DNA of 64,000 nucleotides from Austropuccinia psidii. Taxonomy: Eukaryota > Basidiomycota > Pucciniomycetes > Pucciniales > Sphaerophragmiaceae. The stretch covers positions 1,061,501 through 1,125,500 of the forward strand of contig JALGQZ010000015.1 in the NCBI GenBank assembly GCA_023105745.1, given 5' to 3'. Positions 5,186 to 58,975 of the stretch are shown one piece after another; position 1 is the first letter of the stretch, and every line of letters starts with the position of its first letter. The position numbers and the translations under genes are program-made. The notes under the pieces are model-generated. The model searched no databases. It saw only the letters and a list, made by a program, of their open reading frames with translations, and was not told the DNA's origin.

Positions 5186-5263
5186 ATAGCTGAGGCAAAA
5201 GAGTATAACAAGCAGAGGTAAGACAAATCACACATAGAACCTGACTTTAAAGAAGGGGACCAG

Positions 5264-33984: not shown

Positions 33985-34386
33985 TCTCCCACTTGAGATC
34001 CAGTCACAAGGAAATACACCAGTGACACCTTCAGAATCAGAAGGAAACAAGGGCAAATACAGAGGGCACAGTGAAGGCTTGATAACCACTGAGACGTGGA
34101 CACCAATTGCCACAAACAGGACTAGAAAAGCACAAACCTCTGCTTTCATACAAGGTAAACAAGCCTTGATAGCTTGTACAGGGAAGAGGTTCATAATTAA
34201 CCCATTTTTAATCTCCAAAGGCAAATTGCCCAAAGCAGTCGATAAACATTTTGTACAAGGCACAGTCAAAGGTAAATACCATAAGAAAACTTTTTTTACT
34301 TCTTGCAAACACTAAGATGTCCCCTGTACACCTCAGGAACCTTTTAATCTCAAGGAACCAACTAGAGGAAAGATAAGGACTGTTAA
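33985..34386 (+). pseudogene. ORF1 upstream exon and gag-pol start region of A2
   Basis: The frame reads PLEIQSQGNTPVTPSESEG, then KGKYRGHSEGLITTETWTPI and KGKLPKAVDKHFVQGTVK up to a possible donor (GTAAAT at 34272). A gag-pol-like ATG follows at 34317 (MSPVHLRNLL), and an acceptor CTCAG lies at 34332-34336. Joining at 34271/34337 puts the downstream sequence in the +1 frame relative to that ATG, the same relation as ORF1 and gag in A1. This copy has stops in both frames downstream and is cut by element C. No in-frame ATG for the exon is visible, so it may be lost or on an earlier exon. Confidence 0.5.
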
Positions 34387-36372
34387 TGTAAACCTTTGAG
34401 ATATGCCCACATACCCAAAAAGGTCACAAGAAATATTTAAATTAATTATACCTTAAAAATAATTACCTTAAAACTACAAAACTGCCATAAATAGGCATAA
34501 AATTTGGTTTAACTTAAAAGCCAATGAATAAACATGTGAAATAAATTACACCATTGGATTCGTCATGGTAAAATACACATATACCCTTTTTATGGCATAT
34601 CTTTAAAGTCAATATTTAATGAGTTATAAGTAATAACACCTTATAAAAAACATGAATCCTTATTAATTTCAAATACCAATGAAACAAAATGTGAAAAGAA
34701 TTGTACCATTGGATTCCCCATAAAATTCTACACATAAAAAAAGTAAGAAGCTAATCTCCAAAGTCAATACTTAAGGAGTTAAGCTGAATATATGCACTTT
34801 TTTGGTCAATGCATATATTCAAGGATTTTAGCTAATATCTTTTGAAATATACATGATAGAGTGATAAGCCAAAAATAAAGTCACCTCATAATTACTGTAG
34901 GAACACAAAATTGAATTTTATTTCATAAGCTATAAACAAGGTTAAAACTAGTAATGGATTATTGATTAAAATCAATAGAGCTGTTGAACACTTTGTTTTG
35001 AAAGTGGTCTAAACTGAACAAGAAGTAGACAGTCAGATTCTACTAGTTCATTTGTAAAGAATGACATATTTTCTATTACAATATTCAAGGTATAACCCCT
35101 TGAAATCATGGTTTGAAGTTTAAAGTATTAGATTTCGACAGAAAAGATGAGTTACAAGAAAAATCATCAAGAATACAGTTTTGATGATTCATGAAATTCT
35201 CATGGCATTGTAATAAGGACATGCCAAGCTATCAGAATCCACTCTCAAGACAGCTGTAGTGTGTATAACTTAAGCGTTATTAATGATCAAAGTTTAAGCT
35301 TAAATTTGATCATTTAAGATCACTCACTGTAATCCTATTTAGGTTTAACAGTCATATAAGTGATAAAACTGCTGAATACTATTAGAATATGATTAATAAT
35401 AATAGAATCCACAAAGCTTAGGCCTCTTCCAAGCCTATTATGTCATCAAACTTAGAGTTATAGTGATAACTCTAAATAATGGCGTAATTATGAGGTAAGA
35501 TGGTTTGATCATGATGTAATCATCACCAAACCTTAAAATATTCATCAATTCTAGTAAAACGCATCAGTAAACGTCTACTAGAAGCCTTCTGGACTCTAGG
35601 AGGGAGGTATTTACTATAAATAGAGCTCTTTTTACTCTTTTTCACCCTCAGATGCTTACAAAACACTAAAATATTGAAATCAAAAGGTAATTTATTTATT
35701 CTTTATATATATAACTCTTATATTATTAAAGACCAAAGATAATTTTATTATAATCATCATCTTTTACATGATTATTAGATTTACTTAACTGTTTTGTTTA
35801 AAATTCTCTTAAAAACCTCAATTCCACGTAAAATTAAAGAATATTTGTAGTTTCTCTAAGAATTTATTGGAAATACAATTTAGAAAGGTTGTATTTACAT
35901 TTTATGGCATAACATTATTCAAAACTATTCTATTAAGTATTAAAAGTAGGTTATTTCTTGTTATTATACTAATTTTCTCTCGATTATTACTTTGAATAAT
36001 TCTATAATTAATATAAATAGCATTTATATTAATTCATAACTTTAATAATAGTAATATTATTGTTATTAATTGCTCTTTATTAATAAAAAACAATTTTTTA
36101 CGCCTTTATTATTTGTCTGTAACAATAATAAAGTGCTTTTAAATATATTAATTATCTTATATTAATATATTTATTTATTACATTATTTTTTCATGATATA
36201 AGTCAAATTATTATATTTATTCAATAATATAATTCTTTTTACGCCATAATTATAATAATTCTTCATTATTATAGTTATTTTTGTCTTATTTATTTCATAT
36301 ATAAGGACATTCATAGTACAATAAGTAAAATATTATTAATTTTTACTTATTTCTTCATAGTCAAACCTTACA
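34387..36372 (+). repeat. 5' LTR of element C (family 2a), 1986 bp
   Basis: It starts TGTAAACCTTTGAGATATG and ends GTCAAACCTTACA. It is homologous to the solo LTR at 19807-21768 and to the 3' LTR at 63214. A primer-binding-site candidate follows immediately, confirming its 5' role. Confidence 0.92.
35615..35622 (+). promoter_or_regulatory. TATA box in the 5' LTR of element C
   Basis: TATAAATA with the same flanks as in the solo LTR at 21021 (GAGCTCTTTTTACTC). The conservation of this stretch between two diverged LTRs supports a promoter role, but transcription start was not determined. Confidence 0.5.
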
Positions 36373-36390
36373 TTTGGGGGCCTGGCCATG
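36373..36390 (+). other. Primer-binding-site candidate of element C
   Basis: TTTGGGGGCCTGGCCATG starts directly at the LTR end and is identical to the site of element D and nearly so to A2. It ends in an ATG, which is also present in D. Confidence 0.72.
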
Positions 36391-36860
36391 ATATTTACTC
36401 TAAAAGACCTTTAAAAAGATTCTAATTGGATTTATCCAATAATAAATTACAATTATAATCATAAAATTATATAATAACTTTATATTTATTGATTTTAAAT
36501 ACTATTGAGGCATTTGGAAAGGAATTGTACTGTCTTACACGTGGTTTTTCACATCCTTAGACTTGCAAGAAGCTTCTTTGAGTGACTCTAGTAATTGAAA
36601 AAGATATTTTTCAAATTAAAAAATACTTTATATTATAAATTGATTTTATAAAAAGAATCATACTCATTTTTTCTTTTATTCTTTAAAAATGAAACATAAA
36701 AAATAATAAAAACCAACAAAAAAAGTTATTTTTATTCATTTTAATTTCTTTTCTTTATTTATTTTCATTTTTTTAAGATATAAAACCAATTTCACGTGGA
36801 AAATTGCCATATCTTACCCAAAATAACACTTCTTATATAAAAGACTTATATTTATTTGTC

Positions 36861-37267
36861 TTTTTTAGTGTTTGAAGACAATCCATCAGAGGGCAACCAA
36901 GCCAGTGATGAAATATTGGTGGAAGAAACTTTTCTAACTTCTTCAACACCAATAATCACTAACAAAAAGCAAGCCAAGAAATTTGACTTTCCAGGACCCA
37001 CTATTCAGAACTCTGAAGGTGAGTACCTCATTTATAAATTGCCATAAGAAGAATTCCTGTTCTGAAATACTCTTATTTCTTATTTTTCCTTAAAGCATGA
37101 CTACCAGAAGAGGCTCCCAATACTCCAGCCAATCAGATAGAGCTGGACTCAGAGGTAGAATTGATTCCTCAAAAGGGAAAAGGAAGGGCAATATCCCCAG
37201 TGGAACAGAATCCACACAAGGGAGTGTCTTATCTCAAAGGCAAGTCCCAGAAATGCCCATGATATCT
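36861..37267 (+). pseudogene. ORF1 of element C, two exons with intron 37019-37107
   Basis: Exon 1 follows a good acceptor (TCTTTTTTAG, to 36868) and reads EDNPSEGNQASDEILVEETF, then KKFDFPGPTIQNSE, ending in phase 1 at 37018 before GTGAGT. The acceptor ACTACCAG ends at 37107. Exon 2 then continues without a break as EAPNTPANQIELDSEVELIP, KGKGRAISPVEQNPHKGV, to a stop at 37265-37267. The gag-pol ATG (37097) is inside the intron. The same donor phase and acceptor words occur in element D. The frame resumes after element D at 47913. The function is unknown and no domain is recognised. Confidence 0.55.
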
Positions 37268-37462
37268 GAGCCAGAGTTAGAACTAAGTATGAGTAACTCA
37301 AACAGGTACAAATCACATTCAGAGGGCTCAAATAGACATTTACATGAGCCAGTACAAACAGTACTACACAGTGTACAAAGACAAGGACTGGACATGTTGC
37401 CTCAAATACACCAAGGAGTGATGAACTCCTGGCACATCCTGAAAAAGTTCCTCAAAGAGTAG
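37097..37462 (+). CDS. gag: Gag-pol N-terminus of element C (fragment)
   Basis: The frame starts MTTRRGSQYSSQSDRAGLRG and is homologous to the D start MVHTRNG...GQGRGK, with later shared blocks SEPELE, GSNRHL and PVQTVLHSVQRQ. It is Ser/Arg/Gln-rich and disordered-looking. The last ~12 residues (VMNSWHILKKFLKE) match the ORF1 frame of element D rather than its gag frame, so a frameshift lies just before them. The ORF ends at 37460-37462, about 100 bp before the insertion of element D. Confidence 0.65.
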   Translation: MTTRRGSQYSSQSDRAGLRGRIDSSKGKRKGNIPSGTESTQGSVLSQRQVPEMPMISEPELELSMSNSNRYKSHSEGSNRHLHEPVQTVLHSVQRQGLDMLPQIHQGVMNSWHILKKFLKE

Positions 37463-37570
37463 GAAATAGTGAGATACTACAATTGATGGAATCCACTATC
37501 ATCCAAACCTCAAATCAAAAAGATCAAGGAGTACCATTCCAAAAACAAGGAGGCAACCAAGGAAGAAGCC

Positions 37571-39538
37571 TGTAAGATTTGTCTATGAAACTGATGATAA
37601 TATTACTATTAATCAACAGTACTATGACTGTTCTTATGAAATATCATAACAAACTGTTATTATAACCACAATTAAATAATTAAAGAATTATTTCTTTCAC
37701 GTGTTAAACACTACTAGTGATCTTAACAGTGAGAAAGTAATTGTCTACAAGAATCAATTACAAGAAGATTTTAATAATAAAACTTCTTTTATTAAAATAA
37801 TAAAATTATTTTAATATATAATTATCTTTTGAAAGAATAATTATAATGGTAATTCTTGAAGAAAACTCATTTTAGAGAAAAACTTTAAGAATTACAAATA
37901 AATCACTCACTAATATTCCAAAGAACTCATTGAAAGATAAGATAGAGAGATTTGACGTAGAATTGTGGATTTTAAGGATCAAAATGAATTTATAACAGTA
38001 TTACAACAATATATAGTTGGATTCTATGATTTCAAGTCTTTCTGATTGATTCTGAAAGATTTGAAACACTTAAGAATAGCTATAACTAATACTTACTTTT
38101 TGGTAATAATGATTTAAATGATAATAAGATGATGATGTGGAAAAAACAGCAAGAAGAGGCCTCTTTTAAGTCAACAACAGCTCACAGAGGCGTGCCATGG
38201 AGAAAACTGAAAAACCAGTGAGTGAGGAAACAATAAACCCTTTTTAATTACTGATTGCATCATCTGTTGTCACGTAAGATTATCATAATTACTTAATTGA
38301 TGCTTTTACGTGACTACCAACCCCAATATGGTTAACAATAAAAGGAGTAACATCTGTAAATCTTCTTTTATTCCAAAATAATCATTGATTTCTCAAAGTT
38401 ATCAATTTTATTGCCAATTTCATCAGAGGTTGTAATTACTGTAAATTTTTGAAGATTCAGTGTTTCACGTAGAATAGTCAAAAATGGACTGTACGTAAAC
38501 CTTTTAATTTTACTAGTAAAACTGTAATTATTTTTGGTTGTACCATAGATAATACAGTTCTCCATTAGTCCTGAAAGTTTCAGAAAGATTCATTGAGAAT
38601 TGTATTTTAATGAATTTTTGAAGTTTTTACCTCATTTCTACATAGAATTGCAAATATCAGTGTTTCACTGGTTGCTATGAGGTAAATAAATGGATACAAG
38701 TCCAAAAAGGGTTTTAATTACTCTTTTTTTGGTTTATCCATGGAAAATCATTAAGAATTGACATGGTTACAGGAGTCTAAGTAGCTTTTTACCTCCTTGG
38801 CACGTCAAAGTAGCAGGTTTATTTGCTATTTTCTTAAGATTTACAGTAGTTGTGACATGGTAACAAAGTTCCCAAAAGGTTTTAGTTTACCAATTAGGCC
38901 AAGATCAGCCATGGATCCAAGTTTTGGAGCTGTCCATGCCTCTGAGGCCTCAGAAGTCGGGTACCCTGGCTCTCTTTTTTTTGTTTTTTTTTTGTACGGA
39001 CCATCCAGGAGACCCCTCAAGATCAAATTCCCTCAATAGGATAGTTTTTTGGAAGTGAATCTTTTTATGTCAAAATAGAAATTTAAGCTTAAAGTGAGAT
39101 ATCCACTATGGGTGTACCAAAAGTCTATGTAAGAATACCATGATATTAAGTGCTCAAAGCATGCATAACACTATTCTTAGTGTATATGTAAGATGGGATT
39201 TCTCACTTTCCCATTATTTTGGCATGAAATTAAGAAAAACAAAAATTTTCACGGATCTTTTATGTGGTATTGAAGTATTTTCCATTTTACCACCTCAAAG
39301 AGTTAATTTGAGCTTATTCACTATATGGAGCTACCCTAGGTGAATTTTTGTGTAGAATCCAAATCTGGCCTTAAATCCATGGATTTACTTACTCAATAAA
39401 AAGGTATTTATCCTTTCTGAAATCAAAAATGATGAATTTTGGATATATGCATGACTTATGAGTTATGCATAATTCAAAATTTCTTTTTAAGATAATTGTG
39501 GCCTATTTGGGTATGTAAAATATACCTCAAGACTCACA
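37571..39538 (-). repeat. 3' LTR of element D, 1968 bp
   Basis: In plus orientation it starts TGTAAGATTTGTCTATGAA and ends CTCAAGACTCACA. It aligns with the other D LTR, except that around 38985-39062 it has a sequence block not present in the right LTR. This explains the 46-bp length difference. Confidence 0.94.
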
Positions 39539-39556
39539 TTCCCTCCCACCAAAAAA
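39539..39556 (-). other. Polypurine tract of element D
   Basis: On the minus strand TTTTTTGGTGGGAGGGAA lies directly before the 3' LTR start TGTGAGTC. It matches the tracts of elements C and E. Confidence 0.75.
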
Positions 39557-39669
39557 TAAAATGGTACTACAATTTTATCCATGGTATAAGGAATAAAAGG
39601 CCCCAAAGGGGGGTTAATGTCCACTGTCCAACCTCTTTACATTACTCAGATCAAGCAATTAAAGCACAT

Positions 39670-40677
39670 TTATAGACATATTCGGGCTTGTGGCCTTCTT
39701 TCATGTCTAAATCTTCTCAAGAGTTTATCTGAGTCAAGTATTTCTGATTCTGCCAGCCATTCATCTTCATGTACTGGGTTTCTATATCTGACAAGATATT
39801 CTCTTTGATTTTTACCCCTAAGTCTCCTTTCTTTAATGACTTTTTTTATCTTTTTATCTTCATTTTGTTCCACTGGTGGGACAGTTAAAGGAGTTGGGTT
39901 CCTTAAAGGAAACAATTCTCTATCAGCTGGTTGATAAGGTTTTATCAAGCTGAGTGGAAAGGTGGGGTGTTTATTTTCCAATTCACCACTCAATTCCACT
40001 TGAACTGCATTGGTTCCATGTAAGGCAGCAATAACAAAAGGTCCTACATAAGAATCTTTATATTTATTTGGGCCTTTAATATTATTAAAATTCAAGGTTG
40101 GAACTAGAACTAAGTCCCCTACTTTGAAGTCTGGTACTTTATGACTCTTGTCCCACTTCTGTTTTGCATAATCAAAAGCATCATTCATACTTTGTTTTGC
40201 GTGATGTTTTACTTTATCAAGCATTATCTTGAAGCTGGAAGCTGTAGGATGAATGTCAATCAAGTCTTTCCTCAGTGTGTCTGCTGGGAGTCTTGGATTC
40301 CATCCTTTTTCTAACATAGCAGGAGTTTGTCCTGTGGAAGAATGGACTGATGTCTTGTATGCCAATTCTAGTGCAGGTATCAGAGTGCACCAGTCATGGG
40401 TAAAGCCATCTGACTCTTTTAATTCTAACCCATAAGCAAAAAATCTTCTGATCATGTCTTCTAAAGTTTGAATCATCCTCTCTGCTAGCACATCTGTCTG
40501 AGGGTGATATGCTGTAGAGAATGATAGCTTAGTCCCAAAAAATCTATGAAGATTGGTCCAAAGTGCAGATGTGAACTTGGGATCTCTGTCACTTGATATT
40601 CTTGAATAATCCTGTATGAGGAATAACTCTACTCCATAGAAGAAGAGTTGTATCCATAGCAGTGTCATCTTTATCAC
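39670..40677 (-). CDS. pol: Integrase core, GPF module and chromodomain, element D (fragment)
   Basis: In this 335-residue segment, from about residue 27 it is integrase: D30 in [13 protein letters not shown] and E66 in [12 protein letters not shown], 35 residues apart. [11 protein letters not shown] follows, then the GPF module ([21 protein letters not shown]) and a chromodomain-like end ([40 protein letters not shown]). The first ~25 residues are out of frame, because the true frame arrives from the neighbouring segment through a frameshift near 40610. The chromodomain may guide insertion into heterochromatin. Confidence 0.88.
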
Positions 40678-41791
40678 ATGGTAAGAATATGGGAGTCTTG
40701 CTATATATGTCTACAATGACTAAACAAGCATTATAACCTTTGTCACCACTTGGAGGAAGTACTGTGACCCAATCCATGTAAACAACTTCCCAAGGGGAAT
40801 TTGGTTCTTGAATATGGATCATAAGTCCAAATTTCTTGCCTGTACTCCTGTTTTCTTTTTGACATCTGTCACAGGTATGGCAATATTCAATGGTTTCATT
40901 TCTCCAAGATGGCCACCATCCACAGTTCTTTACTTTTCCTAGTGTTCTGTCTTCTGAAAGGTGTCCAGAGTAGATGCTATCATGGAATTCATGAAGAATG
41001 GTACTAATAAGCAATCTGCTACATAATGCCATTACACAAGAATGTTTGGTTCTGTGGTAAATAATCGCATCAAACAAGTGAAATCTTCCTTCAGAATAGG
41101 AATTCCTCCAAACTTCATCTAGTGCATTGACCAAATATGTATCTTGGCAGTCTTTATCTAATAAGGAAGTCAAGATATGGCAATTCTTGTCCTGTTTATA
41201 AGATTCTCTGACCTCTTCAAAGAATTCAGTCCCAATATCAATTATGTTGATCCCTTCAATTGGAATCTGTGGTTCAGCCTCCAAAGGTACATAAGCTGGG
41301 TTATCAGGAGTGTTGGCCTTTGCCCACCTGCTAAGTCCATCAGCATTCTTGTGAATGTTTCCTGCCTTGTGGACTATAGTCATGTTTCCTCTATATTCTT
41401 GAATGGCTAATGGCCATCTCAGAATATGTCTGTTGGGAGTTTTCATGTTAAGAAGTGATTTTACTGCATTACAGTCAGTTAATCCTTCAAAAACACTGCC
41501 ATCAAGATAATAGTGTAATTTCTCAAGTGCCCATACCAAGCATAAGCATTCCATTTGTCTTTCACCATATCTGGATTCTGTTGGTTTGATTTGTCTTGAG
41601 ATAAAACAAACTGGTCCCTCTGTAGGTTTGTCATCAATAATTTGGACTTGATGTAGGGCAGCCCCTAATCCATCTCCACATGCATCAATGTACAATTTAA
41701 AAGGAATATTCCAGTCAGGCATGAGGAGTAAAGGTGCTTCTGTAAGAGATCTCCTTATCTTCTCATAAGCTTTAATTCTCTCCTGTGTCAT
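40589..41791 (-). CDS. pol: RNase H, integrase zinc domain and first catalytic Asp, element D (fragment)
   Basis: The 400-residue segment starts in the connection region ([13 protein letters not shown]). It has RNase H residues D36 ([16 protein letters not shown]), E81 ([13 protein letters not shown]), D106 ([12 protein letters not shown]) and D151 (NADGLSRW). It continues with a tether, the HHCC zinc domain ([11 protein letters not shown]...CHTCDRCQK) intact, and the first integrase Asp in [10 protein letters not shown]. The family usually has EVxTD where this copy reads EGLTD. It ends at a stop caused by the frameshift before DRDPKF. Upstream, two in-frame stops separate it from RT. Confidence 0.88.
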
Positions 41792-41940
41792 TTAAAATAC
41801 AGTCTGTTGATCACAGATTCTCTAAAGTGACTTGGCTAGAATTGCAAAGTCTTTTAAGTTTTGCCTATAATAACTGGCAAACCCAAGAAAAGACATCATT
41901 TCTTTTTTATTCTGGGGTATTGGCTTAAGTAACACTGCTG

Positions 41941-44226
41941 CTACTTTGTTTTGTCAATACCCAAGCTTAAACCAGAAACAATATGTCCTAATGCTTTAAT
42001 TTCTTCAAAACCAAAATTGCATTTATTAAGTGAAATTTTCATATTCACTTCTGCAACCTTGTGAAGTACTCTTGCAAGTCTTTCAAGGTGTAAGGACCAA
42101 GAATAAGAACATATGATAATATCATCAATATAAATGATAAGCCATCCTTCAGACAATTCTGTGGGAAAGATGGTATTCATCATTCTTTGATAATGGGATG
42201 GGGAATTTCTAATGCCAAATGGCATTCTAAGATACTCATAAATACCACAGTGAGTGATAATTCTAAGTAATTTCTTAGCTTTGGGCGTCAAAACATTTTG
42301 ATGAAAGCCTTTCAATGAATCCATTGATGTTATATACTTGGCTTTAGATAATTGAGTCAAGGCTTCTTGAATTCTAGGGATTGGATACCTATCTGGAACT
42401 GTGTAGGTGTTCAATGCTCTGAAATCTCCAACCATTCTTGACTTATCATTATGCCAGGCAATAATAACAGGTGTTGTTACTTCAACTTCCTCATTATGGC
42501 CTACTTTTATTAGTACATCAAGCTGGATTAACTCTTGGATATGTTTTTCCAAGGCTTCTCTAGCTCTTGGACTGGCTGGATAAGCTGGTCTTCTAAGTAC
42601 TGGAGGATATGGTCTGTCAATATTAAGAGTAATATCAACTTCATGTCCCCTTATAGCACCTAATGGTTCATTATCAGAGGCAAATGCATTATTGTATGTG
42701 TATAACACATTAATAAGTTCATTCCTCATTTTTGGTGATAATGATGGATTAATTTGTGCTTCAACAAGTTGATTAGACACAAATTCATCTTTATAAGTAT
42801 CCTTGACAGAAGATACCACAGATATTTGGTTTGGCATATTGGAAAAAGAAAATTTATGTCTTTTGTTATCCCCAATTGTGAAATATCTGTCTTTATGGTT
42901 ATTGATGTCAATACCATAAATATTCAAGTAATCATTTCCAAGAATGATGTGCTGAGATGTACAATTATCCATCACCACAATCTCAGTTTTCATCCTCACA
43001 CTTCCTGCTGGGTGTGGAAATACAAGATTAGTGTCTAATATACCCAAGGGGTACATATTGTTATTAGCACTACTAAATTGCACACCTTCTATTGGTAATA
43101 GATGGTTTTTCCATTCAGGAAGTATAATTTGGAGATAATATTTGCCTACACAAGTGCAGAATGCCCCTGTATCCAAATTTACTTGTGCTTCAATATCACT
43201 CATCAGAACTGATGTGATACGGGATGCTCCAGCAGTGTAACCCTTTCCTCTAGCAGGTTTTGTTTTACACATTCTGGCATCTTGGATATTGATCAGGTTG
43301 CAGCACTCCTCACTGTACTGTGGCAAATGGGTATGACCTTCTGTGACCTCAAAGAAAGCTTTAATGTTTTCAATGGGATAGTCCTCCACTGGTGTATCCT
43401 CAGAGACTGCAGAATCCTTATCAGACTCCTCTTTCTCTTCAGTACACTGAATTTCTTCAATGACTTGAGCTTCATTGATTTTTGTCTTTTTGGTGCAAGT
43501 GTTTGCTAAATGTGAAGCACTTCCACATTTATGACACTTCAAGAGAGGTCTTTCTGGTCTTTTATCTTCTCTGGGAATCTTTGGGACCATCTTGGATTCC
43601 ATAGGGATCTTAGTACAAGTTTTACCAATCCATGTTCTGGTAATGATATCTTCCATTGCATTAATGTAGTCCTCTTTTGAACAGGGTTCTACACATCTGC
43701 TTTTGAGAGCATGTTCCAGTTCTCCTCCACACTTCCTTAATATCTTCATATTAATCATAGTGTCAGACATATCTGGGTGTAAGGCAGATAATCTGTCCTT
43801 TTTCTTGAAGAACCAAGTAAGTGGTTTATATTTCTCTGAGTTAAAAATGGCACTTTCAAAAGCATTTTCCATCTTAAACCTCCAAGAATTGTTGGCCCAT
43901 TTGGTAATCAATTCAGATTTCCACCAAGACCAATCATGTCTACCATGATCCATTCTCACTTTGTAATACCGTTTCTTTGCAGTTCTGGTAAAGAGAAAGT
44001 GTAATTTCTGTACTATGATTTCATCAGGTATATTAAAGTCTTCCTGTAACATATCAATAGTCCTGATGAACTCAATATGGTTATATTCTCCTTTCCCAGA
44101 GAATGTTGGCCATTCTTCTAATTTGGGAATATCTTTGACAGAGACAACATTTTCTCCTAAAAGTGGGGTAAAACTTCCTTTAACAGAAGGTTTTTCTTCA
44201 GTCAAGGGTGTAGAATGTCTTGGCAT
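41941..44226 (-). CDS. gag-pol: Gag core, zinc knuckle, protease and reverse transcriptase, element D (fragment)
   Basis: The 761-residue open segment is the longest in the window. Residues 30-200 are the Gag core (PKLEEWPTFSGKGEYNHIEF, LEHALKSRCVEP). An intact CCHC knuckle has C231, C234, H239 and C244. The protease motif DTGA is at 352-355. RT follows with TTPVIIAWH, GDFRALNTYTVPDRYPIPR, SMDSLKGFHQNVLTPKAKKL and the active-site YIDD at 699-702. The start at 44226 is just the first ATG after a TAG at 44287-44289; the frame continues upstream into the Gag N-terminus. It ends at a one-base slip just after SLGIDKTK. Confidence 0.92.
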   Translation of the reverse strand: MPRHSTPLTEEKPSVKGSFTPLLGENVVSVKDIPKLEEWPTFSGKGEYNHIEFIRTIDMLQEDFNIPDEIIVQKLHFLFTRTAKKRYYKVRMDHGRHDWSWWKSELITKWANNSWRFKMENAFESAIFNSEKYKPLTWFFKKKDRLSALHPDMSDTMINMKILRKCGGELEHALKSRCVEPCSKEDYINAMEDIITRTWIGKTCTKIPMESKMVPKIPREDKRPERPLLKCHKCGSASHLANTCTKKTKINEAQVIEEIQCTEEKEESDKDSAVSEDTPVEDYPIENIKAFFEVTEGHTHLPQYSEECCNLINIQDARMCKTKPARGKGYTAGASRITSVLMSDIEAQVNLDTGAFCTCVGKYYLQIILPEWKNHLLPIEGVQFSSANNNMYPLGILDTNLVFPHPAGSVRMKTEIVVMDNCTSQHIILGNDYLNIYGIDINNHKDRYFTIGDNKRHKFSFSNMPNQISVVSSVKDTYKDEFVSNQLVEAQINPSLSPKMRNELINVLYTYNNAFASDNEPLGAIRGHEVDITLNIDRPYPPVLRRPAYPASPRAREALEKHIQELIQLDVLIKVGHNEEVEVTTPVIIAWHNDKSRMVGDFRALNTYTVPDRYPIPRIQEALTQLSKAKYITSMDSLKGFHQNVLTPKAKKLLRIITHCGIYEYLRMPFGIRNSPSHYQRMMNTIFPTELSEGWLIIYIDDIIICSYSWSLHLERLARVLHKVAEVNMKISLNKCNFGFEEIKALGHIVSGLSLGIDKTK

Positions 44227-44286
44227 ATGTGGTTCATAATTCTTATGAATTTGTTCTACATTTGCAATGATTTCATTCTTTAACTT

Positions 44287-44619
44287 CTACCTTTCACTGT
44301 CACTTTTTGCCAAATGTGTAGCAAATTGATTGGTATTCTCAACTATCTCTAAGACATGGTCTTGTAGAGTTTTAAATTGATCATTAATTTTAAAAATAGA
44401 AAGATCTTCCATTTCATCATTTTTAATCTGACATGTACTCTCAATTCTGCTACAAGCATTGATAATTGAATCAAATTTGGCATTTGTTATTTCATACCAT
44501 TCAGTATATTTCCTGTAATGTTTTTTCAAGTCATTAATATCCAATGTTATTTTAGTTAACTTTGAATCAACTTTACCAATTTCTACATTAATAGCTCTTT
44601 TTACATGATTTATTTGCAT
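44287..44619 (-). CDS. gag: Gag coiled-coil region, element D (fragment)
   Basis: The 110 residues are strongly heptad-like (IGKVDSKLTKITLDINDL, RIESTCQIKNDEMEDL, DHVLEIVENTNQFATHL) and match the coiled coil at residues 223-312 of the A1 Gag in position. The segment is in the same frame as the flanking gag segments, separated by a stop on each side. Such coiled coils could drive Gag assembly. Confidence 0.78.
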   Translation of the reverse strand: MQINHVKRAINVEIGKVDSKLTKITLDINDLKKHYRKYTEWYEITNAKFDSIINACSRIESTCQIKNDEMEDLSIFKINDQFKTLQDHVLEIVENTNQFATHLAKSDSER

Positions 44620-45194
44620 GGAAAAGTCCTGTTCATCCTTTCCTGCTCCTTGGCTGTGAATTCCATGAGAGGTCTGGCCATATTGAATACACTGTCAATG
44701 GCTGAAGGCTCCAATTTGGGGATCCTGTACCCTTGTGGGTAAGGTATGTGCCAATTGGCTTTGCCTTTGCCCTTTCCTTGATGGTTCTTGGGACCTCTCT
44801 GCTTCTTCTGAGGTCCTTTGGGATTGTCTTTGGACACTTCTGGAGCTGGTTTGGAGCTGGTAGACGCCACTGGGGCTTCTGTCTCCAAAGCTGGAAACAT
44901 TTCCAGTTCCTTCTTCTGGTCTATGGATAAAAGACTTTGGTTCTTCAACCAATTCTTTATCTTTTTGACCTTGTCTTTGCAAGAAAGGGGGCTCCATCCT
45001 CCTAAGAGCTCTATGGTCTTCTCCTGACCCAGAAAGCTCTTGATGTGTAAGTAGGAGTTCATGTCCCCCTGCCAAAGGCTTGGGCATATTTCCCATTCCT
45101 CTTCTTTGGCTGCTCTGAACCAATTTTTGTACCGGAATTGATATATTTCTATTGCTGCCACTTGAAAATGGTTCAGCCCTGGAAATATGGTCAT
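44610..45194 (-). CDS. ORF1 main exon of element D, overlapping gag in the +1 frame
   Basis: The 194 residues have normal protein character: FRYKNWFRAAKEEEWEICPS, MNSYLHIKSFLGQEKTIELL, LKNQSLLSIDQKKELEM, a Lys/Gly-rich stretch, and ending YRIPKLEPSAIDSVFNMAR plus LMEFTAKEQERMNR. The end matches the ORF1 tail of element C (YRIPK, VFNMAR, LMEF, KE..RM), although the gag frame over the same bases hits a stop in C. The frame runs upstream to 45373, past two TGA codons near 45207-45224, to the acceptor. No domain is recognised. The basic C-terminal half suggests nucleic-acid binding, which is inference. Confidence 0.6.
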   Translation of the reverse strand: MTIFPGLNHFQVAAIEIYQFRYKNWFRAAKEEEWEICPSLWQGDMNSYLHIKSFLGQEKTIELLGGWSPLSCKDKVKKIKNWLKNQSLLSIDQKKELEMFPALETEAPVASTSSKPAPEVSKDNPKGPQKKQRGPKNHQGKGKGKANWHIPYPQGYRIPKLEPSAIDSVFNMARPLMEFTAKEQERMNRTFPCK

Positions 45195-45387
45195 GAATCA
45201 GTTCAGGCTCAGAATTCACGTCAAAATCTGTTGGTACAGGCCTTGGGGAATGGGGGGCAACTCTGGCATCCTCCAAATGTGTCTTTCTTGTGGAATACTT
45301 GGCACTTCTGGATTTGGTCTTGCCTCTTCCTTGTCCATATCCATCTGGTTGGACTGAATAGTTGATTCCATTTCTGGTATGCACCAT
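44695..45387 (-). CDS. gag: Gag-pol N-terminus, element D (fragment)
   Basis: Starting at ATG 45387 (MVHTRNGINYSVQPDGYGQG), the frame is rich in Ser, Arg, Gln and Glu (RSVQRQSQRTSEEAERSQEP) and looks disordered. It overlaps ORF1 over almost its whole length. I chose ATG 45387, not the GTG two codons upstream, because element C starts at the equivalent ATG. It ends at a stop at 44695-44697. The same frame then continues to the coiled coil, so this is a nonsense mutation. I recall similar gag-pol starts from the myrtle rust. Confidence 0.72.
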   Translation of the reverse strand: MVHTRNGINYSVQPDGYGQGRGKTKSRSAKYSTRKTHLEDARVAPHSPRPVPTDFDVNSEPELIHDHISRAEPFSSGSNRNISIPVQKLVQSSQRRGMGNMPKPLAGGHELLLTHQELSGSGEDHRALRRMEPPFLQRQGQKDKELVEEPKSFIHRPEEGTGNVSSFGDRSPSGVYQLQTSSRSVQRQSQRTSEEAERSQEPSRKGQRQSQLAHTLPTRVQDPQIGAFSH

Positions 45388-45610
45388 TTTCACGTCAATT
45401 TAAAGATAAAAGGTGAAATATAAGACAATATACACACCTTTTGGTGGTAATTTAGCTTTTTCTGAGTTAAATAAGGTGCCCATTTAAGCAATTTGCACCT
45501 CAATACTGTCTTCAGATTCTGCATCTGAAGATTCTGGACTAGTGATATATTTCTTACTGAGTCTGTTGCCAGCTGCACAGTATTTGATTAAAGACACTAA
45601 AAATTGATTA
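45374..45610 (-). pseudogene. ORF1 upstream exon and intron, element D
   Basis: After an acceptor-like ATTTTTAG the frame reads SLIKYCAAGNRLSKKYITSP, ESSDAESEDSIEVQIA, a stop, then GTLFNSEKAKLPPK and ends in phase 1 at 45438. A GTGTGT donor and a 64-base intron (45437-45374) end in CATACCAG. Exon 2 then opens as EMESTIQSNQMDMDKEEARP, PEVPSIPQERHIWRMPELPP. Phase, acceptor word and the position of the gag-pol ATG inside the intron match element C. The donor is weaker than the GTGAGT of C. Confidence 0.5.
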
Positions 45611-45970
45611 AAAGAGAAAAAATTCTTTTTTCATAATTTTTTAAAATATTTTTAAAGATTTTTTATAAGTTTTATATTTTTTAATATTAAAAAAATTATT
45701 CTTTTTAAAGTAAAAAAAAATTAAAATCTAAGATTTTGAATGAAAATTAATTCAGAGTAACTAAAAGAATAATTTTATAAGTTTTTGGATGTGAAAAAGC
45801 CACGCGTAAAAACAGTACAAAATTCAACCAAATTCCTCAATGAAAAAGATTTCCAAAACAATTTCAAAAATAAGAATTATTTTAACTTTAAAATGAAAGA
45901 AAAAGATTATTAAATTAATATATTCTAGAACTTAAAAAATATATTAATTAAGGGTACAAGGTTTAAAAAA

Positions 45971-45988
45971 CATGGCCAGGCCCCCAAA
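45971..45988 (-). other. Primer-binding-site candidate of element D
   Basis: On the minus strand TTTGGGGGCCTGGCCATG follows the 5' LTR end directly. It is identical over 18 bases to element C despite LTR divergence. Confidence 0.72.
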
Positions 45989-47910
45989 TGTAAGATTTGT
46001 CTATGAAGCTGATGATAATATTACTATTAATCAACAGTACTGTAACTGTTCTTATGAGATATAATAACAAACTGCTATTATAACCACAATTAAATAATTA
46101 AATAATTATTTCTTTCACGTGTTAAACACTACTAGTGATTTTAACAGTGAGAAAGTGATTTTCTACAAGAATCAATTACAAGAAGATTTTAATAATAAAA
46201 CTTCTTTTATTAAATTAATCAAATTATTTTAATATATAATTATCTTTTGCAAGAATAATTATAATGGTCATTCTTGAAGAAAACTAATTTTAGAGAAAAA
46301 CTTTAAGAATTAAAAATAAATCACTCACTAATATTCCAAAGAACTCATTGAAAGATAAGATAGAGAGATTTGACGTAGAATTGTGGATTTTAAGGATCAA
46401 AATGAATTTATAACAGTATTACAACCATATATAGTTGGATTCTATGATTTCATGTCTTTCTGATTTATTCTGAAAGATTTGAAACACTTAAGAATAGCTA
46501 TAACTAATACTTACTTGTTGGTAATAATGATTTAAATGATAATAAGATGATGATGTGAAAAAACAGCAAGAAGAAGCCTCTACTAACTCAAGAACAGCTC
46601 ACAGAGGCATTCCATGGAGCAAACTGAAAAACCAGTGAGTGAGAAAACAATAAACCCTTTTTGATTACTCATTGCATCATCTGTTGTCACGTAAGATTAT
46701 CATAATTACTTAATTGATGCTTTTACATGACTACCAACCCCAATATGGTTAAGAATAACAGGAGTAACATCTGTAAATCATCTTTTATTCCAAAATAATC
46801 ATCGATTTCTCAAAGTTATCAATGTTATTGCCAATTTCATCACAGGTTGTAATTACTGTAAATTTTTGAAGATTCAGTGTTTCACGTAGAATAGTCAGAA
46901 ATGAACTGTAAGTAAAAGTTTTAATTTTACTAGTAAAACTGTAATTTTTTTTGGTTGTACCATAGATAATACAGTTCTCCATTAGTCCTGAAAGTTTCAG
47001 AAAGATTAATTAAGAATTGTACTTTTAATGTATTTTTGAAGTTTTTACCTCATTTCTACGTAGAATTGCAAATATCAGTGTTTCACTGGTTGCTATGAGG
47101 TAAATAAATGGATACAAGTCCAAAAAGGGTTTTAATTACTCTTTTGAGGTTTATCCATGGAAAATCATTAAGAATTGACATGGTTACAGGAGTCTAAGTA
47201 GCTTTTTACCTCCTTGGCACGTCAAAGTAGCAGGTTTATTTGCTATTTTCTTAATATTTACAGTAGTTGTGACATGGTAACCAGGTTCCCAAAAGGTTTT
47301 AGTTTACCAATTAGGCCAAGATCAGCCATGGATCCAAGTTTTGGAGCTGTACATGCCTCTGAGGCCTCAGAAGTTGGGTACCCTGGCTCTCTTTGATGTC
47401 TTTTGTCCCCCTTGCTTATTTCTTATGTCAAAAGAGAAATTTAAGCTTAAAGTGAGATATCCACTATGGGTGTACCAAAAGTCCATGTACGAATACCATG
47501 ATATTAACTGCTCAAAACATGCACAACACTATTCTTAGTGTATATGTAAGATGGGATTTCTCACTTTCCCATTATTTTGGGGTGAAATTAAGAAAAACAA
47601 AAGTTTTCACGGATCTTTTATGTGGTATTCATGATGTGGTATTGAAGTATTTTCCATTTTACCACCTCAAAGAGTTCATTTGAGCTTATTCACTCTATGG
47701 AGCTACCCTAGGTGAATGTTTTCGTAGAATCTAAATCTGGCCTTAAATCCATGGATTTACTTACTAAATAAAAAGTTATTCATCTTTTCTGAAATCAAAA
47801 ATGATGAATTTTGGATATATGCATGACTTATGAGTTATGCATAATTCAAAATTTCTTTTTAAGATAATTTTGGCCTATCTGGGTATGTAAAATATACCTC
47901 AAGGCTCACA
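45989..47910 (-). repeat. 5' LTR of element D, 1922 bp
   Basis: On the minus strand it starts TGTGAGCCTTGAGGTATA and ends TTCATAGACAAATCTTACA. It is paired with the LTR at 37571-39538 and followed by the duplication AAGCC. Differences from its partner are a few per hundred bases. Confidence 0.94.
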
Positions 47911-47912
47911 AA

Positions 47913-48134
47913 GCCCCAGTAGCTTCTACCAGCAAGCCCCAAGCCAACCCACTTCCCCAAGAAGGGAAGAAGAACAAGAAAAATAATTGGAGAAAACCAT
48001 ATTCCCCAAGCTACAGGATTCCAAAAATCCAAAAGGATGCCATGGACAATGTATTCAACATGGCCAGAACCTTGATGGAATTCAAGGACAAGGAAGAACA
48101 AAGAATGAGACAACCTCATTTGCCAAAGAAATAA
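47913..48134 (+). CDS. ORF1 C-terminal part of element C, after the D insertion
   Basis: The frame starts at the insertion point with APVASTSKPQANPLPQEGKK, then NWRKPYSPSYRIPKIQKDAM and VFNMARTLMEFKDKEEQRMR, and stops at TAA 48132-48134. It matches the ORF1 end of element D at the protein level, while the gag frame over the same bases has a stop after ~24 codons. This is the best sign that ORF1 was the protected frame in this overlap. It continues the ORF1 exon left of element D once the inserted 10345 bases are ignored, apart from a frameshift near 37420. Confidence 0.6.
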   Translation, partial: APVASTSKPQANPLPQEGKKNKKNNWRKPYSPSYRIPKIQKDAMDNVFNMARTLMEFKDKEEQRMRQPHLPKK

Positions 48135-51061: not shown

Positions 51062-51379
51062 ACATCATATAAAGGACTTTGCAAAAATTTCCAAATCCTT
51101 GTATAAACTATGTGACCCACAAACAGTCTATTAAATGACAGAAGAAAGATTCAAGCCATATGAAGAATTGAAAAATTCCTTAACAAATGCCTACTTCTTC
51201 TAATACCAGATTGGAAACTACCCTTTAAACTTTACATTGATGCTTGTGGAGAAGGACTAGGTGCTGGACTACACCAGACACAAATTATCAATGATAAACC
51301 AGTAGAAGGGCCAATTTTTTTACTTCAAGACAGATAAAGCCAACAGAGGCAAGATATGGAGCAAGCCAAATGGAATGCC
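51062..51379 (+). pseudogene. pol: RT connection and RNase H N-terminus, element C, cut by element B
   Basis: In changing frames the sequence reads the connection ([20 protein letters not shown]), [16 protein letters not shown], then RNase H start ([20 protein letters not shown]), and ends with QMEC at the insertion site. The remaining RNase H resumes right of element B at 61235 with CLVWALEKL. The ATGCC codon region is the duplicated target. Confidence 0.8.
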
Positions 51380-52129
51380 TGTAACAACCATCCATCAGGG
51401 GTAAGGGTATTCATTCATATACCCACTCAAACACCTCAAAATCAGAATATCCACTGTTGCATCAATATTCAGTTTCAGCAATCTTCAGTTCTGAAACATG
51501 CATACAGCTTGGTATCTCAATACAGCCTGTCAACATCTGTACAGGTTGGGTTCACCCAATACAGCTTCAATACACCAGGATGAAACTGTATGATCACTCA
51601 AATCCACCACACCTCTTGTACAGCCATACAGGACCTGTATTAGCCAGACTCAATTCAATCATCAATTATTCTCATGAAAATTCTTCCTCTGGATCAGGGC
51701 TGGTGATTCTCACATATACCAGCCCCTCTTTCTCCCCCTGGGGACTTTTCCCCAGTTAATTAATTTAGTTTATTTATTATTTTATGATTATTCTTATCCT
51801 TATTTTGGGTATTATAATTATTTCATTTTAAGTTAGTCTTTGCATTTCTCTCTTTGCCTGTACAGTATTAGTTGGGTGGCCATATCCTTATTAACCCTTC
51901 TCTTTCCATTCTGACAGGTTGAAACAGTGGACTTGGACTTGTTTGTGGTTGGCTCTTCTATTCTTTTATTCTTATTCTTTTGTTGCTGCTTTCTTATATC
52001 TATTCTTTTAGTAATTCATCTTGAACACTTTTAAGTGTATCCTCTGTTACCATATCTTTGAGCCCTCCATAAGTGAGTCCCAGTTTACTGAGTGCCAGGC
52101 CCTCTTCACTTCGAAGAGCCCCTGTGACA
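51380..52129 (+). repeat. 5' LTR of element B, 750 bp
   Basis: It starts TGTAACAACCATCCATCAGG and ends AGCCCCTGTGACA. Compared with the 3' LTR it lacks a ~12-bp repeat of TTCTGTACAG-type sequence near 51623. Short open frames in it are not coding. Confidence 0.95.
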
Positions 52130-52809
52130 TTAAATTAATTAACTCATATTGATTCTTTCTTTTCATTCTTTTATAATCATTTCTCTCAGTCATCAATTAT
52201 GACTTTTCAATTATCTTATGATTCTTAATGATTATGATTTTCTCTCTCATCAATTTTCATCTCATTCATTTCATTTATATGAAAATTGATTCTGTCTTCT
52301 TTCTTAATCATTGCTGACCATTTCATTAACTTCATTTTATCTTATCAAATTAATTTTTTCTGTGTTCTCATTTAGGTCTTATTCAGGATTGATTTATTGG
52401 TGTAATTGATTGGATTAGTCATTGGGATTCATTGGGTTTATTGATTCAGTGATTCAGGATTTTTCATTTGGATTGGATTGATTGACTTTGAATTCTCAAG
52501 ATATTTTATTGATCCTCAAGAATTGATTTTGATTATTGATTTATTTGACTCATCAAGATATTTGAATTGATTTCTGAAGATTTTGAATTGATTGATTGAT
52601 TCCTCAAGACCTTGATTCATATTGAAGACACTGATTTATTGATTGTTGATTATTGATTGAATTGATTTATTGTTGATTGAAGCTGATTTCACCTCAAGAA
52701 TTGAATTGATTCCTCAAGACTCATCAAGATTTTATTGTGATGGATTTGGCCAAGTTTTGATTTCTGTTCTCAATACCATCAAGTTTCTTTTATTCAACTT
52801 CTGTTCATA
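52130..52809. other. 5' leader of element B
   Basis: About 680 bases follow the LTR, rich in TTGATT words (GATTGATTGATT, TTTATTGATT). No TGG-starting primer site is obvious right after the LTR (TTAAATTAATTAACTC), so the priming mechanism cannot be assigned; self-priming is one possibility. Confidence 0.55.
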
Positions 52810-52983
52810 ATGCCAGTTCAGCATAGTCCCCCAGCAAAGAAAACTAGATCCTAAAAAATTCCAGCTGTTCTCACTCCTACAGCAAGGGCTCCTCTTGACC
52901 GCACACCATCAGTTCATCAACTGAGTGAAAACTTGGACAGAGGACCACCAATGTAAGGAGCAGAACCCTCAAGAAGAGGTGGA

Positions 52984-54336
52984 ATGAAATCTAGAAGATC
53001 AAGATCCTTTTCTGGACTTTTGGGTGGCTACCCTGGCATGTCTGAAGGTGCAAGAGCAAGATTAGGGGAAGTTGAAGATGAAGAGGGGGAAGAGTCTGTG
53101 GAAGAGGAAGATTCTGGGGAAACTGAAGTGGCAGATGCCTTGGCACATGCTCCAGAGGTGCCTCAGGGTTCTAATCTAGCCCTTTCTAGTCAACCTCTTG
53201 TCTCTCAAACTGACCCAAGTCTCCTCAAGATGATGGAGCAGATGACTCAATTCATGGGGCAACTCACTCAAGCAGTTGCTCCCAGGGACAATTCCAAAGC
53301 CCCTGCTTTCAAGACTCCATCCATGAAGGCACCTGATTCTTTTGATGGAACCCAAGCTCATAAATTGAGAGGATTTATCCAATCCTGTCAATTAATCTTC
53401 TATAATGATCCAGAAAATTTCTTCTCTGAAAGGAAGAAAGTTCTTTACTCAACTTCTCTTCTCACTGGTAGAGCTGGAAAGTGGATTGAACCCTATCTCT
53501 CAAATATTTCCAATGAAGACCCTTCCTACCTCCTCAATAATTGGCCATTATTTGAATCTCAATTATTCACTCTGTTTGGTGACCCCAATGAAGTAAGGAA
53601 AGCTGAACAAGAGTTGGACAATTTGAGGATGAAGGAAAGTGGTCATGTATCCTTGTACATTGCAGATTTCAGAAGGTTAATGTCAAGAATTGGAGATTGG
53701 GGGGAAAGAGCTTATATCCATGTTGACATAAGAGGATTGGCATCAAGATTATTGGATCAGTTGGCTTCTCACCCTGGAAATTTTGATACTCTTCAAGAAC
53801 TTATGAATGTCACTTTAGAGTTAGACACAAGGTATCATGAGAGGCAAAAAGAAAAGGGTGGAAATCAAGAGAAGAAGCCTCCAGTCATTGGATCCAATCA
53901 ATCTAGGCCTCCTCAAAACTCATCTTCAAAGAGGCCTCACCAGAAGAAGAACAAGAAGGGCAAGCAGTTCGAATCTTCAAAGCACAAACCTCATGCTGCT
54001 CTCCTCAATAAGGACAATAAATTAATTGGTTCTGAAAAGGAGAGGAGGATTAAAGAGGGGTTGTGTACGTATTGTGGTGGAAAGAACCCAATTGAAAATT
54101 CTTCAAGAGACCTCAGAACAACCCTGGGTCATCATCAAGAGGCTTCCCTAGCAAGCAGGGAAAAGCCTGAGTGGGGATCACAATGTGTTAGTGTCAAGAA
54201 GTCTCCAAAATCTCTTATTTTCTCTTCTGTCTCTGATATTTTTTATAGTATTCTCATTGATTCTGGTGCTAAAAACTCTTTTATTGCAAAGAATTTTGTT
54301 CTCAAGTACTCATTGACTCCGTCAGAGCTCCCTTAA
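52984..54336 (+). CDS. gag: Gag and start of protease, element B (fragment)
   Basis: The 450-residue open segment probably began at ATG 52810 in the same frame (PVQHSPPAKKTRS), but two stops now separate that start. It has an acidic N-terminal region (EEGEESVEEEDSGETE). A retrotransposon Gag domain spans about residues 115-280 (APDSFDGTQAHKLRGFIQSC, LFGDPNEVRKAEQELDNLRM, IADFRRLMSRIGDWGE). A basic region follows, then a knuckle CTYCGGKNPIENSS in which the expected His and last Cys are Asn and Ser. The protease motif DSGA starts at D426. It ends at TAA 54334-54336 within protease. Confidence 0.9.
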   Translation: MKSRRSRSFSGLLGGYPGMSEGARARLGEVEDEEGEESVEEEDSGETEVADALAHAPEVPQGSNLALSSQPLVSQTDPSLLKMMEQMTQFMGQLTQAVAPRDNSKAPAFKTPSMKAPDSFDGTQAHKLRGFIQSCQLIFYNDPENFFSERKKVLYSTSLLTGRAGKWIEPYLSNISNEDPSYLLNNWPLFESQLFTLFGDPNEVRKAEQELDNLRMKESGHVSLYIADFRRLMSRIGDWGERAYIHVDIRGLASRLLDQLASHPGNFDTLQELMNVTLELDTRYHERQKEKGGNQEKKPPVIGSNQSRPPQNSSSKRPHQKKNKKGKQFESSKHKPHAALLNKDNKLIGSEKERRIKEGLCTYCGGKNPIENSSRDLRTTLGHHQEASLASREKPEWGSQCVSVKKSPKSLIFSSVSDIFYSILIDSGAKNSFIAKNFVLKYSLTPSELP

Positions 54337-54354
54337 AAGATTCCTCTTTTCATT

Positions 54355-54747
54355 TTGGATTATAATGAATCCCCTGCCTTGTTTATCACCAATTATACCA
54401 AGTGGGTAGCTGACTTGCCTTCCTTCCCAAGCTTTGAATGGGACTTTTTTATTATAGATTCACCCAAGGGAGAAGACCTTATATTGGGCTATGATTTCCT
54501 CTACCATTTTAATGACATTATTGATTGGAAAAATGGATTGATCACCTATGATTCTAGTCATAAGGATTCTAGTGGTATTATTCCTTCTACTAGTAATGAC
54601 TTAGCCACTGCTGTCAACAGTGTTGCTCTGGTTGGTGAACTTAAGACACCTTCCCTTCCTTCTTCTGTCCATACCCCCTTCATCATTCCCTCTCAGTCAT
54701 TACTTCCATTAAGAGATGAAGTCTTCAAAGAGATAAAGGATGTTTGA
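54355..54747 (+). CDS. pol: Aspartic protease C-terminal part and linker, element B (fragment)
   Basis: It is in frame with Gag after a single stop. FFIIDSPKGEDLILGYDFLYHFN is the conserved end of the retropepsin fold (ILG-D block) and IDWKNGLITYD follows. The remainder is a Ser/Pro-rich linker toward RT. It ends at an in-frame TGA at 54745-54747. Confidence 0.82.
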   Translation: MDYNESPALFITNYTKWVADLPSFPSFEWDFFIIDSPKGEDLILGYDFLYHFNDIIDWKNGLITYDSSHKDSSGIIPSTSNDLATAVNSVALVGELKTPSLPSSVHTPFIIPSQSLLPLRDEVFKEIKDV

Positions 54748-54789
54748 GAAGATTTTTCCATATCTTCACTTCATCTCTTTCAAGGGGAT

Positions 54790-54952
54790 ATGGACCCTCC
54801 TCCCTTATCTTTTCATGCCTCCCTGGAGGAGCAGTGGCATGAGGAGGAAGAGCCAGAAGAAATTGAAACTGTGTTGAAGGTAGTCCCTCCTGCTTATCAC
54901 CAATATTTGGATGTATTCTCCAAGGTGAAAGCAGAGAAACTTCCTCCACACC
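54790..54952 (+). CDS. pol: RT N-terminal extension of element B, cut by the solo LTR
   Basis: Same frame again: acidic EEQWHEEEEPEEIETVLKVV, then PPAYHQYLDVFSKVKAEKLP, the conserved entry to gypsy RT. The family-1 LTR interrupts it right after LPPH. With the 1418 inserted bases disregarded, the frame continues into the RT segment after 56370. Confidence 0.82.
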
Positions 54953-56365: not shown

Positions 56366-56370
56366 ACACC

Positions 56371-56846
56371 GCACCTGTGATCACCATATCAAATTGGAGG
56401 GTCTTCTACCTCCAATTGGTGTTATCTACTCCTTATCAAATCAAGAGTCAGAAACACTACGGGCCTACATTTCAGAGAATGTATAGAAAGGTTTCATCAG
56501 ACTAAGCTCCTCTTCAACAGGAGCACCTGTCCTTTTTGTTAAGAAAAAGGATGGAGGTCTTTGTTTGTGTGTTGACTACCTCAAACTCAATGCTGTTACT
56601 AGGAAGAACAGGTATCCTGTTCCTCCTATGAACCAGCTCCTTACCGTATTCAACGGTTCCACTATCTTCTCCAAGATAGACTTGCGTGGTTCATATAACC
56701 TTCTGAGAATCAAAGAGGGGTATGAGCACTTAACTGCCTTTAGAACCAAATATGGTAGTTATGAGTATTTGGTCATGCCATTTGGTTTGACCAATGCTCC
56801 TGCTTCTTTGCAGATTTCTTGGATGTGTTTGTTGTGGTTTATTTAG
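56371..56846 (+). CDS. pol: Reverse transcriptase fingers and palm, element B (fragment)
   Basis: After the solo LTR the frame reads CDHHIKLEG and [20 protein letters not shown], then a TAG near 56486. The open part from 56565 has [35 protein letters not shown] with a catalytic Asp, [20 protein letters not shown] and NAPASLQ. A small deletion after ASLQ shifts the frame before the active-site box. Confidence 0.86.
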
Positions 56847-58960: not shown

Positions 58961-58975
58961 GACATTCATTACTTC

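Follow-up and report, generated by a model that had tools for sequence, protein, structure and literature searches.

Can one retrotransposon RNA give rise to two different proteins from the same DNA, depending on whether it is spliced? We addressed this question in a stretch of 64,000 nucleotides (nt), the window, from the rust fungus Austropuccinia psidii (C15:1061501-1125500 in a genome of 1,015,390,075 bases in 84 contigs). PMC8063080 describes the A. psidii genome as just over 1 Gb in size, with more than 90% transposable elements, mostly Gypsy, and a GC content of 33.8%. The window contains a long terminal repeat (LTR) retrotransposon, element C, for which the original prediction proposed that a second protein, ORF1, is encoded in another frame over the N-terminus of Gag and is made from spliced RNA, gag-pol being read from the unspliced RNA. 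We consider it probable, at roughly 0.85, that a spliced ORF1 overlaps the 5' end of gag in another frame and that splicing switches between it and unspliced gag-pol RNA. The core of this reading is supported by three diverged families of elements, by codon-position patterns, and by gene models from another assembly.

The three families are C, D (represented in the window by an element nested within C), and F, of which two loci were examined. The C sample consists of 30 copies (the window copy and 29 others) cut out of 40 that were scored from 3,796 candidates, and is therefore biased toward near copies; the D sample likewise consists of 30 copies, including the one in the window. Additionally, a varied sample of 20 places (L061-L080) was hand-picked from the first 100 listed matches on contig 1 to an ORF1 motif, FNMAR..LMEF, and is made up of 10 D-like, 7 C-like and 3 F loci. 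One of these places, L064, coincides with L039; L072 and L073 hardly differ from each other, and the F counts rest on two loci. The motif has 11,536 exact matches in the genome (5,744 and 5,792) and its reversed control has none. Within the window it occurs in elements C and D only.

In element C the upstream exon ends at 37018, directly before a donor GTGAGT (37019-37024) that was read from the sequence and retains GT in 29 of the 30 copies. The acceptor ACTACCAG ends at 37107 and has AG in all 30, and the gag-pol ATG (37097-37099), also present in all 30, lies inside the stretch that would be spliced out; these three features are where they had been predicted. This predicted intron 1 of C (37019-37107, forward strand) has a 64-nt counterpart in D (45374-45437, reverse strand), with GT and AG in 30/30 copies and the gag ATG at 45387-45385, and in F the gag-pol ATG is again found inside intron 1. 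Across the varied sample, the donor GT is retained in 10/10 D-like and 6/7 C-like loci, the acceptor AG in 10/10 and 7/7, and the gag ATG in 9/10 and 5/7. All ORF1 joins are in phase 1 in C, D and F. The design of C goes beyond chance, because D and F share its same-phase introns and the placement of an ATG within intron 1. From these signals we infer that element RNA is spliced at these joins.

The join at intron 1 had been predicted to stay open for about 50 codons. The window copy does have 51 open codons, but this is not the end of ORF1, since a second intron appears to follow. After the join, the ORF1 frame of C meets stops at codons 51-61, and 29/30 copies have one or more of the three stops that recur (51, 57, 59). 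D is interrupted at the equivalent place, the frame reopens at a phase-1 AG acceptor in both families, and the protein sequence continues in a similar way (GTNHIQRAQIDIY in C, GLNHFQVAAIEIY in D). We read the stop-bearing stretch of C at 37240-37305 as intron 2 (66 nt, forward strand, GC-AG, donor AAAG/GCAAGT, acceptor AACAG), which is coding in the gag frame, with ORF1 continuing beyond it. Intron 2 of D (45179-45241, reverse strand, 63 nt) has a GT donor, CAAG/GTCTGT, in 26/30 copies, GC in 3 (the window copy included) and AT in 1, and its acceptor AG is present in 30/30.

ORF1 as predicted is thus about 270-290 codons long and composed of three coding exons (B, C and D) separated by two short phase-1 introns. 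In element C, on the forward strand, exon B (150 nt) spans 36869-37018 and exon C (132 nt), which overlaps gag, 37108-37239; the first part of exon D (37306-37570, up to the nested element) is frameshifted in the window copy, and the remainder (47916-48134) has an open frame with 46% identity to the ORF1 of D over 82 residues and ends in a stop at 48132-48134. In element D, on the reverse strand, exon B (159 nt, with an in-frame stop in the window copy) spans 45438-45596, exon C (132 nt) 45242-45373, and exon D, including the stop codon, 44610-45178. Exon C has a length of 135 nt in F, and the ORF1 stop falls at a matching place in C, D and F. When the copies were spliced in silico, a 286-residue ORF1 free of internal stops was obtained from 10/30 D copies, and both F loci were open to the end, with 272 and 267 residues. 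The gag frame of D is stop-free over the aligned stretch in 6/30 copies, 5 of which also have an open ORF1.

Exon B, by the following evidence, behaves as coding sequence. It is 150 nt long in 29/30 copies of C and stop-free in 26/30; in all 10 D-like loci of the varied sample it is 159 or 144 nt long, a whole-codon difference, and 8 of them are stop-free; in the two F loci it is 117 and 102 nt long. The search pattern for exon B was misplaced in the C-like loci L063, L066, L076 and L080; two of the other three give 150 nt and only the D-like loci are counted here. The exon B proteins of D (..SEAESEDSIEVQ..) and F (..SEASESSIEIQ..) are similar to each other.

Gene models of A. psidii MF-1 were informative, as predictions, about these joins. 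The best 120 of 841 matches to the ORF1 protein are annotated proteins of MF-1, with identities of up to 91%, and in a second whole-protein search the best 120 of 334 matches are all from MF-1 as well. A search with exon B matched seven proteins (P0121-P0127). The exon B-C join is present in P0121, P0122, P0125 and P0126, and the last three contain the C-D join too; P0127 is a rearranged protein that has the B-C join, P0124 continues through intron 1 without splicing, and P0123 is an unspliced fragment. Among models of F-type copies, P0128 contains both joins, P0129 the B-C join and a shifted C-D join, and P0179 the B-C join. Six models (P0121, P0122, P0126, P0128, P0129 and P0179) start directly after xTG, which fits a start codon split by an intron. 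Pieces of ORF1 are annotated as hypothetical MF-1 proteins (P0001-P0214; 841 and 334 matches in overlapping searches), and the MF-1 protein set is therefore inflated by transposon genes.

The same models bear on two other accounts of ORF1. One holds that leaky scanning carries ribosomes beyond the gag ATG to an ATG in exon C, with only intron 2 spliced and exon B an untranslated leader. Many MF-1 models of D-type copies do begin MEAT.., and in D the gag ATG and the exon C ATG are 10 nt apart. However, an ATG is absent at this point from C (EEAPNT..) and two F loci (EVEATT..), even if some F-type models have one (P0133, MEETT); exon B has the coding-like character described above, in its whole-codon length differences and its D-F similarity; and the B-C join occurs in four MF-1 models of the exon B search. 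We regard this account as improbable, and as a general rule a start at the exon C ATG is rejected, the ATG being missing from the C copies and two F loci. The other account makes ORF1 a Gag domain, the N-terminus of a longer protein reached by a frameshift or by a splice into the gag-pol frame. In its favour, MF-1 models P0096, P0098, P0101 and P0104 combine stretches of the ORF1 and gag frames, and the overlap stops shortly before gag runs on alone; this account has no need of gag's own ATG or of a gag frame that stays stop-free across the entire overlap, and the ORF1 stop at an equivalent place in three families speaks against it. We find it still more improbable, and prefer to treat ORF1 as a separate protein translated from exon B onward.

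Where would its translation begin? The acceptor at 36868 (TTTTTTAG) had been taken to indicate a further upstream exon; it has AG in 30/30 C copies and fits a model in which the start codon is split. In all three families exon B opens with TG, straight after the acceptor AG, and the ORF1 start codon is probably completed by an upstream intron 0, with an A from the leader joined to the TG of exon B (A/TG). Intron 0 of C (35687-36868, forward strand) could use a donor at 35687 (AAAAG/GTAATT) or at 35946 (TTAAAA/GTAGGT), both kept in most C copies, and would take out U5 and the primer binding site (PBS, from 36374 on); only the second donor gives A/TG. Intron 0 of D (45597-46514, reverse strand; donor CAACAA/GTAAGT, acceptor TTTTAG) also takes out the PBS. 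Its donor GT is found in 28/30 copies and in 7/10 D-like loci of the varied sample, the final leader base is A in 27/30 copies, and the acceptor AG is present in 30/30. The A/TG start is, on balance, strongly indicated for D, likely for F and ambiguous for C.

The unspliced leader contains few start codons. Each of two D copies has 4 ATGs in intron 0, where 11-12 would be expected; two C copies have 3 and 5 (expected 11 and 15), and one F locus has 1 (expected 13.6). An AUG-poor leader fits the use of the unspliced RNA as gag-pol mRNA. A gag-pol mRNA that has lost intron 0 and keeps intron 1 was also considered; exon B and intron 1 are ATG-free in 17/30 D and 21/30 C copies, and this RNA is not needed, the unspliced leader being AUG-poor too.

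If both frames are real, differences between families should reveal which of them has been constrained, and here the simplest rival has to be weighed: that gag alone is real, the +1 frame being open by chance and the splice-like signals being by-products of gag coding. Differences in exon D at ORF1 codon positions 1/2/3 number 54/41/88 between D_L039 and F_L072 (p 6e-5 vs uniform), 57/51/91 between C_L009 and D_L039 (p 9e-4) and 61/52/99 between C_L009 and F_L072 (p 1.5e-4). ORF1 third positions are the most variable in 31/31 between-family pairs, which share sequences and are not independent, and the peak in the gag frame is at first positions. Over the overlap, protein identity between families is 42-60% for ORF1 and 28-38% for the gag frame. 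In this comparison C_L008 was dropped as unparsable, an indel in C_L011 flattens the gag-frame counts, and C_L002 has stops in exon C. Downstream of ORF1, gag shows a third-position peak in pairs with C_L002 (e.g. 108/82/138), a weaker one in pairs with C_L009, and none in pairs with C_L011, which have indels. Between families, then, the overlap evolves as an ORF1 gene, judged by its codon positions and protein identities, and gag remains stop-free. Chance openness would leave unexplained why the differences peak at the third positions of ORF1 and not of gag, why ORF1 identity exceeds gag identity across the same DNA, and why intron phases agree in three families. In its favour, the acceptor TACCAG doubles as Thr-Arg codons in gag, and shuffling gag codons leaves on average just 1.9-3.0 stops in the ORF1 frame (P 0.006-0.054). 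We consider it most improbable, more so than either account above, and chance openness was rejected on the codon-position patterns in the three families.

Shuffling in both directions lends support to two constrained frames. With ORF1 codons shuffled, 4.8-8.0 gag stops are expected in exon D and none is found (six sequences, P <= 0.002); with gag codons shuffled, the real sequences again have 0 ORF1 stops, and the third frame has 8-11. The six sequences were picked for openness, which favours low counts in both frames, and the result therefore supports two coding frames and does not prove them. Within families, we compared variants shared by several copies (at least 4 in D, at least 2 in C) with singletons as a neutral control. 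Pooled shared variants fall at ORF1 third positions in 47/94 cases vs 149/437 for singletons (p 0.005), and at gag third positions less often, 22/94 vs 148/437 (p 0.05). An excess of ORF1-synonymous changes, the signature of purifying selection across copies, is evident in D (10/19 vs 43/210, p 0.003) and slight in C (19/75 vs 46/227). In gag downstream of the overlap, the shared variants of both families fall disproportionately at third positions (17/33 and 30/48).

Several observations weigh against a spliced, overprinted ORF1 with a split start codon. The best-placed leader donor of C would yield G/TG instead of ATG, an A-ending leader donor in F was seen in one locus only (L072), intron 2 of C requires a GC donor, and exon B of the C-like locus L077 measures 134 nt by pattern. 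On the side of selection, the openness of ORF1 given gag is only weakly unlikely in the shuffles, the ORF1-synonymous excess in C is slight as given above, and the shared-variant position test is not significant in D alone (10/19 vs 73/210, p 0.14). Moreover, the sharing of a variant is an imperfect indicator of transmission, because some variants common to 2-3 C copies are stops. Finally, the function of ORF1 is guesswork, because neither a domain nor a fold is recognised.

The elements themselves are Ty3/gypsy-type LTR retrotransposons, as assigned by their sequence features. Element C lies on the forward strand, with a 5' LTR at 34387-36373, which includes a TATA box near 35613 and the two candidate leader donors, a PBS at 36374, and a 3' LTR from ~63212; the LTR pair is based on a repeat of 34385-35174 at 63212-64000 with 91% identity. 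Two nested elements, D (37571-47910) and E (~51379-61234), interrupt it, and with these insertions and the stops and frameshift in its ORF1/gag region the window's C copy is dead. The original prediction gave its interval as 36861-48134; the ORF1 stop does lie at the end of this interval (48132-48134), and 37571-47910 belongs to the separate element D. That relative of C is on the reverse strand, with LTRs at 37571-39538 and 45989-47910, TG..CA ends and a target duplication AAGCC. Its pol domains RVT_1, RT_RNaseH and Integrase_H2C2 are in this order and above cut-off in a profile search, with rve below cut-off; the LTR ends, target duplication, PBS and order of reverse transcriptase, RNase H and integrase are those of Ty3/gypsy elements. 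SH3_Tf2-1 passes the cut-off in both C and D, and a Chromo match below the cut-off follows it, at the position where the integrase C-terminus of a chromovirus would have its chromodomain, with 19.5 bits in D and 14.4 in C (cut-off 25.1). The PBS adjoins the LTR in C, D and one F locus, and D carries the same PBS as C. Its start, TTTGGGGGCCTGGCC (36374-36391 in C), is common to C, D and one F locus, and its end differs among copies (CATG, CGTG, TGTG) in a manner that resembles CpG decay.

The remainder of the window contains other repeats. Element E (51379-61234), nested in C, has LTRs of ~760 bp with 96% identity to each other and a gag that matches Ty3_capsid, and is of a different kind from C and D. 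The stretch 19857-21767 is 88% identical to the C LTR and is perhaps a solo or broken LTR. Remnants of other Ty3/gypsy elements, recognised by pol similarity and lacking the ORF1 motif, are located at 1836-5713 (forward strand) and 24035-26746 (reverse strand). Finally, 13751-16752 is a 3-kb array of ~302 tandem copies of a 10-bp unit, ATTAATTAAA, with a GC content of 1.4% over 14001-16000.

How might such an element work? The unspliced RNA, with its long AUG-poor leader, would serve as gag-pol mRNA and as the template for reverse transcription. RNA that loses introns 0, 1 and 2 would lose U5, the PBS and the gag ATG, and would gain an ORF1 start at the A/TG join (in D, probably in F, and open in C), allowing ORF1 to be translated. 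A single splicing choice would in this way swap start codons and withdraw the RNA from replication.

As for ORF1 itself, a profile search found no domain above cut-off, and structure predictions for two ORF1 proteins are helical but weak models, with a mean predicted local distance difference test score (pLDDT) of 51.3 and 65.6 and a predicted template modelling score (pTM) of 0.25 and 0.28. In the two proteins the N-terminus has a charge of -3 or -4, and a linker close to the C-terminus is basic, at +13 or +12. Our best guess, by analogy, is that ORF1 may be a regulator of element RNA; the basic linker is a hint of a nuclear or export role, and a particle or nucleic-acid-binding role is equally compatible with the basic tail. 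It is possible, though we would not count on it, that ORF1 helps intron-bearing element RNA to exit the nucleus, as CERV does for Cer1. Equally tentative is the idea of an independently evolved system resembling that of complex retroviruses, in which a splice-built start turns on an overprinted RNA regulator, silences gag-pol and removes the PBS. If true, such a system may have contributed to the spread of these elements in a rust genome of gigabase size. The spliced ORF1 over gag would, for its part, be a large protein-on-protein overlap (~200 codons) in a cellular retroelement, with the hidden frame under the stronger constraint, and a fungal retrotransposon would be seen to separate translation from replication via one splicing choice. 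The 11,536 motif matches and the hypothetical-protein annotations also bear on gene annotation.

Complex retroviruses encode Rev/Rex-type regulators, accessory proteins that are made from fully spliced mRNA, with gag-pol made from unspliced RNA. The likeness to ORF1 is one of expression layout only, by description. Other retroelements with extra genes, as far as the available descriptions go, keep them in many copies of a family, and some of these genes are reportedly spliced (env-like genes, Bagy2); none is described there as overlapping gag, unlike ORF1. In the open-access literature consulted, including the available text of the rust papers PMC12774611, PMC12210899 and PMC8063080, we found no fungal element of this design. 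BARE of barley is similar in that it maintains separate RNA pools, and splicing makes its translated RNA unfit for copying (PMC3735527). The spliced BARE RNA retains the gag start and favours Gag alone, whereas here the gag ATG lies inside intron 1, and splicing would remove it and make another protein. The nearest analogue that we found is the CERV protein, encoded by the Gypsy/Ty3 element Cer1 of C. elegans and shown to be needed for genomic RNA export. According to PMC10309623, CERV is made in addition to the usual proteins, from a spliced mRNA of several exons that has the gag end of Cer1 in common with the element, is without homology outside its own group, and has splice sites that are kept in relatives; the unspliced Cer1 RNA is both genome and gag-pol mRNA, a role that we propose here from sequence. 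Spliced accessory genes in Ty3/gypsy elements are thus already known. Unlike those of CERV, the coding exons of ORF1 are all located within the leader and across gag, in another frame, the gag ATG is predicted to be spliced out, and the start codon is probably split. What is new relative to accessory genes of the CERV type is that ORF1 appears to overprint gag and that its intron 1 holds the gag-pol ATG.

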